Source: Plumapathes pennacea (Eukaryota > Cnidaria > Anthozoa > Antipatharia > Myriopathidae). Taken from it: a stretch of DNA of 64,000 bases. Positions 3,101 through 53,400 of the stretch are shown here, piece after piece. The DNA lies in contig OZ038464.1 in the NCBI GenBank assembly GCA_964036295.1, positions 16,910,443 through 16,974,442 on the forward strand, written 5' to 3'. A program made the position numbers and the translations under genes. Positions within the stretch are counted from its first letter, which is position 1, and every line of letters starts with the position of its first letter. The notes under the pieces were generated by a model, which did not search any database, was not told the origin of the DNA, and worked only from the letters and a program-made list of their open reading frames with translations.

Positions 3101-5279
3101 ATACCGACCACTCAAAAACTTTTACCGACCACTTACCGACCACACTTTTTGCTACGAATTTTTTTTCCTTTCTCTTTTATTTTTTAACAATTGAAAGCAA
3201 GAAAGACCGTTTGATTTATTTGCGATGTGATTTGCACGTGTGCTGTAATTGATGTGCGTGAGCGAAATCAGTCTGGTTGTCGAAGTGAAGTTGTCATTGA
3301 ATTTTATTGAACTTGGTGGCTCCTAAAGGAGCCGTTGTTTTCGAGGCGAATCTCACTCAAAGAAGTTGAAAATTGAAAATTACTCGTCCAAGCTCGTGAC
3401 TGACTGGACGCGCGTACGTATGAATGTGAGCCAAAAATTTACTCGTATTTATACATTCACAATAAACTTGGCGGATCGAAATGCACTTACTTTTATTGGT
3501 CTAAAGAATCTTGTTTGTTCTATTCATGGATAAAAATACACCGAAATACACTAGCGTTTAGAAAAGCTTTTAAAAGGATTCATTGTTTACGCAATTTGAC
3601 ACCTCAACACGTCAACGCCTGAACGCCTCCTTTGGCTCATTGGTCCGGCTCATTAGCACTATAAACGTCTATTGAAACAGATTATTTGTGCTTGTGCTTC
3701 TTATGAGTTTGTGCTGCTAAAACTGAAGGAGAAAATTGAACTTGATCACTCTTGGTAGTGAAAGGGTTAAAAAGGGACTCTTTTCAGGTGGAGCCTCCCC
3801 ATATATATAGCTGATAATAGGGAGTGACACTTACATCATGTCCAGGTTGGCCAGCTTCACCTCGGGCTCCTGTTTGTCCTTTAGCTCCCTGAGAATGAAC
3901 AATACACTCAACATGTGCTCATCTTTCTCCACACAGCAGAAAACTATAAGACAGACTAAGCATTTCCTAGGGACAATAAAAGTTTTTACCACAACACACT
4001 AGTTTCTCGCCCTCTGATTGGTCGATTAACCGTGGTAAATAAGAGTCCAGACAACGATGTGACGCCAGCGTGTCACGTTTTGCAACGAAATACAGTGAAA
4101 TTTTCTTGTATATTTCTAAATAGTGTGGTAAAAAACAAATTTCCAGTGGTTTGCCGTGGTGTGGACTCTTATTTACCACGATTTACGCCATCTCAAGGTC
4201 AAAATTTGTTGTGGACTCACTTGGCGAAGCGCCTTGCGAGTCCACAACATTTTGACCATGTGATGACGTAAATCGTGGTAAATAAGAATCCACACCACGG
4301 CAAACCACTGGAAATTTATTAAATATCCTTTAAGGTGTTCAAGCAATATTTCTACCTTACAACATTTTAACAATTAACAAACTACAGTCGAACCTCGCTT
4401 AATTTCGAAGTTACACAGGACATGAAAAAAAGTTCAGCCAATAGTAAATGACTGAAAACATAAATCCAAGGGGATTCAGCTTGACTTTGAAATAACAGGG
4501 ACTTTGAATTAACCGAGTTCGAAATAGTGAGGTTCGACTGTAATCTGCACACTGAAACTAAATGACAGCTGATGACAGAAGACTTTGAACTTGAGTTAGT
4601 TAAAGCTGTCAATATTGGTATACTGTATAAATTTGGCTTTGGCCTAACTTTATTTCATTATTACTATAACTTGTCTCCTGGTTAACTCACTGGAATTCCA
4701 GGGGGACCAACAATGCCACTTTCTCCAGCACTTCCTCTTTCTCCCTGAAAATATCAAACTGCATTTCACAATAGATACTGCAATATTTATTGCTATCACA
4801 CTAAAAGTCAAGAAAAAGCTCTTAATTTAGCAATTCAAAAATGCAAGTTTAGGAAAAAATTGTTTCAATCTATAACATGTAGGAGCTACCAGTTACATTG
4901 CATATACCTGAGGATCAAGGGAAGATTTACACCAAATTACATGTACTGGGTAATGGCAGCAGAATTCGATGAATTTTGACAAAAACTCATGAAAAGTATT
5001 GAACTATTTTCAAAGAAATGAAATATGGATGAAAATTCAGCAATTTTCGGAACAATGTAAAATGTGAAAGTTGATTTGGATTTGTGAAATTTTGATTGAA
5101 TTTTGCGTATTATTTTTATGTATTATTTTGTCTATAATAACTGCTCTTTGATTGCATATACCATTATTTATTTATACATCTGAAAGATCTCATAAGTATT
5201 TGTTTCTCAATATAAAAATTATCAAAATACTCACATCTGGACCTCTTGCACCGGCCCTTCCTGCAGGGCCACTGTCACC
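194..5279 (-). CDS. Collagen A exons 8-12: start of the major triple helix
   Basis: Five exons are pure Gly-X-Y: 5235-5279 (45 bp), then 4691-4744, 3835-3888, 2493-2546 and 194-247 (54 bp each). Each starts with a complete Gly codon in phase 0, the hallmark exon design of fibrillar collagens. The last visible exon contains GAIGLRGVKGDR, almost the same as [12 protein letters not shown] in the exon at 46355-46408 of the paralogue, so the five exons align one to one with 47650-46355. Confidence 0.93.
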
Positions 5280-48400: not shown

Positions 48401-50412
48401 GTTCTTCAGTCTGTGAATCGATGGGTCGTTTTGTCAGTTTGTTGAGTCGATGGTTCTTCAGTCTGTGAACTGATGGGTGGTTTTGTCAGTGTGTTGAGTC
48501 GATGGTTCTTCAGTCTGAATCGATGGGTCGTTTTGTCAGTGTTTTGAGTCGATGGTTCTTCAGTCTGTGAATCGATGGGTCGTTTTGTCAGTGTGTTGAG
48601 TCGATGGTTCTTCAGTCTATGAATCGATGGGTGGTTTTGTCAGTGTATTGAGGCGATGGTTCTTTAGTCTGAATTGATTGGTGGTTTTGTCAGTGTGTTG
48701 TCAGTGGTTCTTCAGTCTGGAGTGTGGATCAATGGGTCGTTCTGTCAGTGTGTTGAGTCGATGGTTCTTCAGTCTGTGGATCGATGGGTGGTTTTGACAG
48801 TGTGTTGAGTCAATGTCTTTCTTTTCTTGTTCTTGTAGTCAGTCTGTGAAAAGGCAGTTGAGGTTCTTTTTCACTTCAAATCGTACTCTTCCTTCGTTTG
48901 GTGTTGTTCGTGTCGTTGTTAATAACCCTTACTGTGCCCACAAGCGTTAATCTCAAAACATATTACTCACCAAACCTCCCACTATTGGGTCTGCTGGATC
49001 TATACCTATAATGGGGCCAGGGGGCCCTGGTCTTCCGGGTGGACCTCTTATACCAGGGGGGCCTTCTGGACCTGTATCACCTTTTCCTCCCTACGTCCCA
49101 TCAAAACAAAAAATAAGAAGACCCACAACAACACACAACGTACCATGACACGAAACAACACACAAAACCCCGTAACACTGTGTCACCCTGTACTGTCGCA
49201 CTTTGTAATACCTGTTGCACTTTGTAATACACTCGTCGCACTATGTAATAAAATAACTGTCGCATTTTGTAATAACATGCTCTCGCACTTTGTAACCGAG
49301 CCGTCGCACTTTGTAATAACGTATTGTCGCACTTTATAACAAACTTTGATTGGTCAAATGTAAGTGACTTTGGGGAGTCCCGGTTATACATCTCGGGAGG
49401 ACGTCACATGTCACGTGACTTTTTTTTTTTTTTTTTTTTTGCTCTGCCGTACTTCACGAAGTACCAGTGGCCTTCGGGTGTACGTTTCGAGAGCTTGAGC
49501 CCTTCCTCGGAGCAAGTGGCTAGTTTTGTTCATGTAGTGTTTTGTTTCGGTGTTTTCTCGGAGTAGAACTTCACTCTTTCCCATTTAGTCATCACATCTT
49601 GCACATTTTTGTGGATTGACAATTTTTGCATTTTATACGCAACAAATTGGTTTCCGATTCGGGATGACTGACATTGTCTGCTGGGAACAAATTACTTTGA
49701 ATGTCCGATTTAGGCGAACATTAAATAGAGAGAAACATTTTGCAGAAAATTGTTTGGACAGTAGACTAGAAGGAGTACAACTTTGCGGAGAATAATTTGG
49801 TGAGAGTTTCGTTCCGCGTGATCTCTGTTTGTGAATTTAAAGCCAAACTGATAACATTGGCAGCAAAATCCTTGTACGAGGTGATAAAATGATTCGTCAA
49901 AATCGGCCATTTATGAGAAGAGAGCTAGAGCCTGCATTTTTCGGGAATTGCTCATTTTTGGCTTAATGTCAGACTCACATGAAACATTCAAGAAGCCTTT
50001 CTAATGCTATAACAAAAATGCCTGTTTGCAATCTTTTAAACAATTTAAACGACAGGCCACAAGAAATAAGAGCAGATCATCGACCAGCATTTAACGCTTC
50101 CTAAACAAAAAAGGTTCAAACCTTGCGCACTTTTCTTGCTATATCTTCATAAATTATTAGTTTCCAATCAAATCCATAAGTCATTGCACAGATCTATGCT
50201 TGTCAACTCTTCTTACTAAATTTCAGGCCAAATTGATGAATATTGGCAGAGAAATTCTTGTTACGATGTGGTAAAATGATTCGTCAACATCGGTCATTTT
50301 TGAGAAAAAACCTTAGCAGCCTGTGCAGTATTTTTGGAAAATGCTCCTTTTCGGCCTAAAATTAGATTCGCGTGAAACTTTCATATAGCAGTAAAACACA
50401 AGTTAAGCCCGG

Positions 50413-50444
<32 letters not shown>

Positions 50445-53400
50445 TCAGGGAATACTCGGTATAAAATAATTTCTTTTTCACTGTTTCTTTGTGTAACCAA
50501 TGACTCCTCTTTCCTTTTCCTTTTTAGAAGTGCAAATCAATTTCGAAGAGCATCCTGGATATAGTTTACAGTCATGTGTTCCAACTTCGACATATGGTGT
50601 GTTCGCACTTGGTGGCCGAGCACGATTCTCGCTGGGCACTAATGTGAAGCCACAATCTTTCAAATACCCACGCCAGAATTCGGGCACCGTGAGTACAAGG
50701 TCTAGACTCACTCGGGCACTACAGTGGGACGCTTCGCAGTGTGAACGCGTTTTATTTTGTACCGGGCACCCAAGTGTGAACACGCCAATATCATTGTGAC
50801 GTCAATATGAGGGTCTAGGGTTAGCTTTCGATAAAAACTCGAAAAATGTTGATAAAAACAAAAAAATCGCCAAGTGACAAATCAAACGAACCATAGCAGG
50901 CTAACCCTGCATAACGAAGAGCTAAAATATTAAGTTTTTGGTTAAGTTTCCGCTGGACCGGCTCTGCCACAGTAGCGAGATTCGGAAACGAACAACACTT
51001 GGGGTGATAAACGCCAAGAATGTTATGTTAATCACACAATTTCACTCATTGTTCACTCGATAAAGCTTTATCCTATCAGTTCAATTAGAGATCTTGCGAA
51101 CAACTGACATTTTGCCGAACACGTCTTGTCACAGTCACAATCGAAAACAAAATACCATAAGCGCATGCGCTGCTATCATAGCTTGCAAGCCTATTGACGC
51201 ATTAAATATAGGGTGCAAAAGTCGGATATTAAATGATCCTGGGATGTGAAAGAGCTAAAGCAGGGTTATTATGAGCGGCCGTTGCAATTATTCGTAATGG
51301 GTGGAGCGACGATAAAAAGGTACATCCCATATGGATGAAGGGCCTGGTGTCTCGCAAGCTATATAGCTGATTGGATACATATTACTAATAAGTCGGCTGA
51401 CATCTACTGCGCTCTTCCGGGCAAGGGATAATTCACTATGGCTTGGGGGCCGAATTATCTCTCCCCGTTAGGTCTGGAAGCGTAGACGGGTGTTGGCGGG
51501 TTGCTCCTCGATCTGGCTTGGGGGCCGGGCAACTCTCCCCCGACCACTGTGCGGTGTCATGGGACCGGGTTCGATACCCGGTTTTTCTTTTTGACTTTTT
51601 GCGACCAAAAGTCCTTTTCTATTCCTTTTCGAAGCGCAAATCACTGTCGAAGAGTATTTTGGTTACAGTCAAATGTGCCAACTTCTACATAGAAGTTGTG
51701 ATGAAGTTGCGTTATCCCGTCATCAAAATCTCGTTTTTTTCTTTCACCGGCCCTAGTACTCCAATATACAGTATGCTGACAGCTCATCATTTATTCCCAA
51801 ACTCATTTGGTTTACTACCCAGTAACAAGGATTTCTCTGTAAACATTCACTAGTTTGGCCCGAAAATCACTGTGGAGAGTTGACATGCATAGTCAACGAC
51901 AACAAAAGGCACGTGACATGTGACGTCATAACCGTGATCCCATCCCCCCACCTCCCCCCCCCCCCCCCCAAAAAAAAGTCACTCACATTTGCTTGAAGGT
52001 CAATCAAAGATTAATACAAAGTGCGACAATACGTTATTAAAAAGTATGACAGCTCGGTATATTACAAAGTGCGACAGTTATTTTATTACAAAGTGTGACA
52101 GCTATTCTATTACAAAGTGCGACAGGTATTATAAAGTGCGACGCTATTACAAAGTGCGACAGTACACACCCTACACCACACAACACAATATAAGAAACTG
52201 TCGAAACTCCCATTTCACCACACTAAACCACATAACACACAGATCCCGCCACATTAAACTCCCCTGTACATTCTATAACACGACACAACTTAATCTATTA
52301 TAAATGAACAACGGCAAGCTGAAAAAAATCTGCAATGGATCACGGATCGTCATAAATGATCAACACAGATGACCAACCTTCTCTCCCCGGTCTCCATCGG
52401 GACCTTTACCGCCTGGGGGTCCCTGAGGTCCCTACAAAACAAGGATATAGCTCTCAAACCAAGAATACACGTAAAGCAAGGATTCCACCAGCTTGAACAC
52501 GCAAACGAACAGCTCCCGTTATTCTTGCTTGAGTGTCATTACGGCAGACTGGGCTATGTATAGTCGACCTGATCCTTCACCACTAAGAACTGGCACAAGC
52601 AACAAGCTGGCAACGGCAACGAAAAAGTGTCTGGAGAATGATTTGATTTTAGCATTATTTTAATTTTTTGTTTGAGAACAGCACAACAATCTACAGCACA
52701 GACGTGCCAAACAAATGCAAGGGAACGAGAAAATATGCGACATACCTGATCCCCTGGAGGTCCTGGATCACCTGGAAGACCTATCTACGAACAAGAGACA
52801 AAGTGCATTAAAACAGAAATCACCTGGAAGACCTATCTACGAACAAGAGGCAAAGTGCATTAAAACAGTAAAGCAAGGATTCCACCAGCTTGAACACGCA
52901 AACGAACAGCTCCCGTTATTCTTGCTTGAGTGTCATTACGGCAGACTGGGCTATTTATTAAAATGTTAGGTTAGATAGATATGTATAGTCGACCTGATCC
53001 TTCACCACTAAGAACTGGCACAAGCAACAAGCTGGCAACGGCAACGAAAAAGTGTCTGGAGAATTTATGATTTGAGCATTATTTTAATTTTTTGTTTGAG
53101 AACAGCACAACAATCTACAGCACAGACGTGCCAAACAAATGCAAGGGAACGAGAAAATATGCGACATACCTGATCCCCTGGAGGTCCTGGATCACCTGGA
53201 AGACCTATCTACGAACAAGAGACAAAGTGCATTAAAACAGACTGAAATGAACTGTCATTGGTGTTATATCATCATTCTGTATATGATTCTAATAAGATAC
53301 TATAAACTCTGGACACTTCACAATTCCCCAAAGGTGCTGCTCGATGCTGGTTTGACTATATAAATACGTGTGCGTACTTGTGTTATGTATGTGTATGTGT

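Follow-up and report, generated by a model that had tools for sequence, protein, structure and literature searches.

The inverted-repeat element and its surroundings

The window analysed here is the whole 64-kb stretch of DNA, C3:16910443-16974442 of a 290-Mb assembly. It contains a 2978-bp element (window positions 49189–52166) bounded by CACCC on the left and on the right. The element, its ends and the coding sequence on either side are as follows.

48960–49095, minus strand: collagen-like G-X-Y coding, left flank (translation by eye)
49184–49188, no strand: left target-site duplication CACCC (flank letters)
49189–52166, no strand: whole element, non-autonomous (termini; six-frame Pfam without a transposase domain)
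49189–49210, plus strand: left terminus TGTACTGTCGCACTTTGTAATA, a perfect inverted repeat with 52145–52166
49400–49426, plus strand: inner inverted block, 93% complementary to 51901–51927
51901–51927, minus strand: inner inverted block, partner of 49400–49426
52145–52166, minus strand: right terminus, a perfect inverted repeat with 49189–49210
52167–52171, no strand: right target-site duplication CACCC (flank letters)
52380–52435, minus strand: collagen-like G-X-Y coding, right flank (translation by eye)

A preliminary description of this DNA had proposed a transposon with terminal inverted repeats and flush CACCC on both sides, and this was borne out: the 22-nt terminal repeats are 100% complementary between the two ends, with CACCC at 49184–49188 and 52167–52171. 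The inverted alignment of the ends extends inward over ~185 bp, with 84% identity over 169 bp. Since collagen-like coding on the minus strand lies on both flanks, the element is probably located in an intron. Two distinct tandem repeats with 52-bp units are found near the element, at 48500–48815 and 52767–52868. The window also contains a histone 3′ UTR stem-loop (RF00032) at 3296–3338 on the minus strand.

Site arrays at the two ends

A search with the motif TCGCACTTTGTAATA, allowing up to three mismatches, yielded 14 matches in the 64-kb window against 2.57 expected; none of 100 shuffles reached 14. Seven matches lie on the plus strand at 49196–49341 and seven on the minus strand at 52012–52159, all pointing inward. 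No match with up to three mismatches was detected in the window outside these two arrays.

49196–49341, plus strand: left array of seven sites, start-to-start spacing 19, 21, 24, 23, 21 and 23
52012–52159, minus strand: right array of seven sites, spacing counted from the end 18, 19, 24, 24, 25 and 23

Motif arrays in opposite orientation at the two ends had been described before, with five or six copies each. The arrays and their orientation were recovered, and the matches give seven sites per end rather than five or six. Folding of the left-array DNA revealed no special structure, as 200 of 200 shuffles folded no worse. When the motif was compared with viral contigs, 13 stretches had a single match each, which we take to be fortuitous, and zero matches were obtained with plasmid sequences. 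Two 12-letter strings of the motif had one match in the portions of the literature searched as text, in a fish feeding study, which we attribute to chance; these portions held no other mention, and the families described below may already have Repbase or Dfam entries.

Inserts inside the element

Two sequences resembling pol III genes lie within the element.

50379–50467, plus strand: weak, shortened 5S rRNA-like sequence (RF00001 match)
51478–51589, plus strand: tRNA-like repeat, widespread in the genome and also present in the contig C1 relative

The closest relative read, L031 on contig C1, is 82 to 89% identical to the window copy in its interior, in blocks; its second end was not found. 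It carries a version of the tRNA-like repeat at the same place (86% over 103 columns), and the interior around this stretch is 83% identical between the two copies over 664 columns. The tRNA-like stretch is thus about as diverged as its surroundings, which suggests that it entered before the window and contig C1 copies split. The 98% identity of the repeat to a copy elsewhere counts against early entry, as an old insertion should differ more. ARAGORN found no tRNA. We take the repeat to be a probable tRNA-derived SINE, from a reading of its boxes by eye.

A genome search gave 681 first-look candidates. Scoring covered 40 of them, namely the window place itself and 39 others at 90 to 98% identity. 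All 40 correspond to the tRNA-like part of the query. They cluster in one 0.3- to 2-Mb zone each on contigs C1, C3, C4, C5 and C6, and a single one lies on C2; the clustering may mark a chromosomal region or reflect the choice of scored candidates.

The 5S-like piece matched RF00001 with an E value of 3.3e-4 and 32.7 bits, below the gathering score of 38, and L031 lacks it at the corresponding position. There, at L031:8660-9010, inspection by eye revealed a further inserted element, whose ends resemble CCTGGCAAAACGAG and CTCGTTTGGCCAGG, in place of the 5S-like piece of the window. The element had been thought to have captured a 5S/tRNA-like repeat. Since the tRNA-like repeat is widespread and has a same-place version in the contig C1 relative, it is better regarded as a nested repeat than as cargo, and with a weak 5S-like part "nested repeats" is the better name.

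Three families with a common half-site

Searches with the core of the site left open revealed at least three related families, A (that of the window element), B and C. All three have TGT...ACA ends and the half-site TTTGTAATAA in common, and they differ in the other half. The family A site is bipartite and ~19 bp long, consisting of CTGTCGCAC and TTTGTAATAA, and the family B site reads CTGTCGTGA-TTTGTAATAA. The core CAC of family A (C, A and C in 61, 62 and 61 of 64 sites) is replaced in family B by TGA (18, 17 and 17 of 20 sites). In L051, a 2447-bp family B element with 4 + 10 sites, the core is changed at both ends. Family C starts with TGTTCTG and has GCAT preceding TTTGTAATAA, with two alternating left contexts. 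Counts per site, taken from 13 A, 4 B and 3 C ends with the terminal-most sites left out (64 A, 20 B and 23 C sites), revealed a constant right half and a family-specific left half. Neighboring pairs of motif sites had 59 matches in the genome and none in the control; with the core left open, there were 139 matches, again against none in the control.

The family C terminus TGTTCTGCGGCATTTTGTAATAA matched 23 places with up to two mismatches and 38 with up to three, the latter including some A ends or inner sites; the control gave 0. The family C element L072 is 1505 bp long, is flanked by the duplication CTCCT and has inner inverted-repeat blocks of 141 and 122 nt that are 95 to 96% complementary. 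Another copy, L073, is 96.75% identical to it over 800 bp. Together, these two values indicate that family C is fairly young. By the same measure (84% over 169 bp between its ends), the family A copy in the window is older than family C. Among the single-ended family C loci L073 to L076, inspected 400 to 1200 bp inward from the end, one of four was an ordinary C copy and three had no match to L072 in this interval.

Genomic copies and target duplications

The family A terminus had 104 matches in the genome with up to three mismatches, some of them inner sites, against 7 for a reversed-pattern control. Homology among the copies did not stop at varying positions, the outcome that had been set as evidence against the element: other copies end at the same TGTA...TACA base. 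Among the matches listed, at least 28 matches to the family A end, all on the same strand, lie on contig C2 at 13.7 to 14.6 Mb. The four of these that were read (L044 to L047) have an identical left flank, tttttatgtg, and so look like parts of a tandemly duplicated host segment, not separate insertions. Coding sequence with PAN and F5/8C domains adjoins these ends. The array in L044 has grown to 20 sites and has a repeat unit of 22 bp. A higher-order repeat is present in the array of a copy at 4.7 Mb of contig C2.

Target duplications were assessed in 13 two-ended copies, counting the window copy. Exact duplications of 5 or 6 bp were seen at 8 copies and near matches (5 of 6, 4 of 5 and 4 of 5 letters) at 3, and no duplication was found for 2 (L032 and a contig C2 copy of family C). 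As a control, flanks were paired wrongly; 1 of 156 such pairings matched, between two copies with common flanks. The exact 5-bp duplications are CACCC (window), CCGCG, GTATG (family B), and CTCCT and CACGG (family C); those of 6 bp are AACGTG, TACGTG and CACGTA. All three 6-bp duplications contain ACGT, a number too small to speak of a target preference. Two of the copies, L036 and L049 (C5a and C5b), have common flanks and may represent one event. L032:500-603 is a 104-bp copy in which both family A ends stand face to face.

The length of the duplication is therefore not constant: it is 5 or 6 bp in family A and 5 bp in families B and C. The suggestion of a family defined by the motif and accompanied by target duplications in other copies holds, and its 5-bp length applies to some copies, with 6 bp in others. 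Tandem repeats are frequent in this DNA, and chance inverted satellite arrays with no transposon involved might be considered; copies dispersed through the genome, with fixed termini and with duplications on their flanks, make such an origin extremely improbable.

Conservation of spacer order between families A and B

The spacers between sites follow a loose order in family A arrays. Counted from the end, they read acg, cctg, acacttg, aaatagctg, acatgctg, aaccaagctg and acgtattg. In the longest family B array they are atcg, cctg, aacttg, cctg, aacctg, aaaaagctg, cacctctg, taaaaaagctg and tta. The A-B match in spacer order was 79.7, compared to 68.5 (SD 2.7) for shuffled arrays, and none of 1000 shuffles scored as high. 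This test used 21 A and 4 B arrays, without the expanded L044 and L045 arrays and without ends of one to two sites; among the 4 B arrays, one with just a single spacer contributed no information. Taken singly, the two longer B arrays were equaled in 1 and 5 of 1000 shuffles. In an earlier run with 8 hand-picked A arrays, the corresponding counts for three B arrays were 4, 7 and 156 of 1000 (the last for the shortest), and the left and right arrays of the window element were matched in 102 of 2000 shuffles. Related copies, and likewise the two ends of an element, do not count as independent, so these figures cannot be taken as strict probabilities.

Read plainly, the A and B arrays would be the same positions by descent, at nearly all of which, on either end, a new core took the place of the old one while the spacers were kept. 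Alternatively, no binding protein need be involved, and unequal exchange between tandem units might have changed the core from A to B by ordinary homogenization. Homogenization of units does occur in these elements, as the 20-site array of L044 and the higher-order repeat on contig C2 illustrate. However, it would move the spacers too, and the spacers of A and B keep their identity and order; the core change is moreover common to both ends of L051. We therefore consider homogenization an unlikely source of the change.

Search for a transposase

The preliminary description had proposed looking for a long copy encoding a transposase; none was found among the loci read. Pfam detected no transposase domain in the six frames of the window element. 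No transposase-coding copy was detected in 20 family A loci (L031 to L050; frames of at least 130 amino acids, the 45 longest of 83, at most 150 amino acids each), in the family B loci L051 to L053 (frames of at least 90 amino acids), in six-frame Pfam searches of L052, L097 and ~5 kb inside the ends of L034, L040, L041, L045 and L050, or in the three minus frames of L053 plus 10 selected frames. The domains found in the loci read were host-type (glycosyl hydrolase 9, forkhead, F5/8C, CUB, MFS, PAN and dynamin), together with Gypsy-type parts. These include an integrase zinc-binding domain in L033, taken by eye to be Gypsy, as was L046.

One lead was rejected. A frame with a 2A-like motif (DIEKNPGP) followed by a Herpes_teg_N peptidase-like domain beside the family B copy on contig C8 (L097/L052, C8:10097389-10098033) belongs to a very abundant, nearly identical repeat. 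Scoring 150 of 722 candidates gave 151 matches spread across contigs, many of them at 97 to 99%.

Comparison with known transposons

With fixed inverted-repeat ends in many copies, target duplications and a window copy lacking a transposase, the elements have the features of non-autonomous DNA transposons. We file them under no superfamily; their ends and duplications suggest an enzyme of the integrase type or of the hAT5/hAT6 type.

In the first case, they would be non-autonomous members of an integrase-type superfamily (Ginger2/TDD, GingerRoot or IS3EU) whose autonomous copy is missing from the assembly or was not reached, a possibility that we regard as real yet doubtful. TGT...ACA ends and 5- to 6-bp duplications fit enzymes of this type. 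According to excerpts of PMC2836005, Ginger ends read TGTNR, animal Ginger2 makes 4-bp duplications at RTATAY targets, and TDD-4/5 make 5-bp duplications; across these excerpts and those of PMC10045372, the length for Ginger2 is 4 or 5 bp. The elements thus resemble Ginger1, Ginger2 and TDD in their TGT start, and some copies resemble TDD-4/5 in the 5-bp duplication. They depart from the TGTNR rule, as families A and B start with TGTAC and family C with TGTTC, and their 5 to 6 bp compare with 4 bp at RTATAY targets in animal Ginger2. The same excerpts of PMC10045372 describe 6-bp duplications for IS3EU, with TA..TA ends, and for GingerRoot, with occasional TG..CA ends, as well as IS481EU duplications of ~4, 15 or 25 bp with TGT...ACA ends in H. 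meleagridis. Some family A copies are like IS3EU and GingerRoot in having 6-bp duplications; the termini are TGT..ACA, in contrast to the TA..TA of IS3EU. IS481EU of H. meleagridis has similar ends, whereas the duplications here are 5 to 6 bp. No integrase-type transposase was found inside any array-bearing copy read.

hAT ends usually begin with CA or TA, and subterminal motifs for binding are common among hAT elements. The elements are unlikely to be non-autonomous hAT5/hAT6-type elements. Subterminal motifs speak for such an origin; the TGT ends differ from the usual CA or TA, and the nearest of 17 genome matches to PF05699 (hAT) lies 33 kb from element ends, among the ends listed and by coordinates read by eye. 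The mixed duplications of 5 and 6 bp agree with hAT5 and hAT6, which are named for these lengths in the excerpts of PMC12730594, and the likeness to these two groups lies in duplication length only.

Coral miniature elements have been described as CMITEs of Acropora, which are piggyBac-type, ~100 bp long, use TTAA targets and in some cases form tandem arrays (excerpts of PMC2872659). They resemble the present elements as coral miniature elements with some tandem arrays, but the duplications here are 5 to 6 bp and not TTAA; the elements covered in those excerpts are different from families A, B and C. Galileo has long inverted repeats and internal tandem repeats with several transposase binding sites (excerpts of PMC3688188), and several, here putative, binding sites inside inverted repeats are a point of likeness. 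The Galileo sites lie ~70, 561–577 and 701–718 bp from the end, compared to ~7 sites here at 18- to 25-bp spacing, starting 4 bp from the end. In P-type transposons, the duplication measures 7 to 8 bp. Bacterial transposons of the Tn7/Mu type have TG...CA ends and 5-bp duplications, and at either end transposase sites stand in ordered arrays. The present elements are similar to them in their ends, in the 5-bp duplications of some copies and in the arrays of, here putative, transposase sites, and differ in that Tn7/Mu transposons are bacterial.

A model for transposition in trans

Our model starts from what was observed: the ends, the arrays, the duplications, the dispersed copies and three families with different left half-sites. 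From these we infer that a transposase binds the array, that changes in its DNA-binding domain are followed by the left half-site and that it belongs to the DDE class. Most probably, the element is a non-autonomous cut-and-paste DNA transposon, with a transposase acting in trans that binds the end arrays and joins the ends with a 5- or 6-bp stagger. The enzyme, made elsewhere, would bind the ~19-bp bipartite site, present ~7 times per end and pointing inward. The bound arrays would pair the two ends into one complex, cuts would be made at TGTA/TACA, and the ends would be joined to target DNA with the 5- or 6-bp stagger. The left half-site would track changes in the DNA-binding domain of the transposase.

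If the DNA-binding domain had changed and the sites had followed, the left half would be expected to differ at nearly all of them, as it does. The altered site, present at nearly every copy in related families, suggests that an enzyme not seen here recognizes it. The arrays could also have a role other than transposase binding. Since family C is fairly young, an active enzyme may have existed not long ago. More tentatively, and with low confidence, the elements could represent an undescribed lineage of animal DNA transposons that combines integrase-like TGT...ACA ends and 5- to 6-bp staggers with ordered, Tn7/Mu-like arrays in which one half-site was switched at nearly all copies and the spacer order kept.

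Provided that a transposase binds the arrays, the three families constitute a natural experiment in which one half-site is held constant and the other is family-specific at nearly all sites of an element, of which the window copy and L051 have 14 each. The three families would then show a joint change in the specificity of a transposase and of many sites, which is hard to see in elements with single-site ends. With the A, B and C termini as three clear queries, the autonomous element could be sought and the superfamily named.
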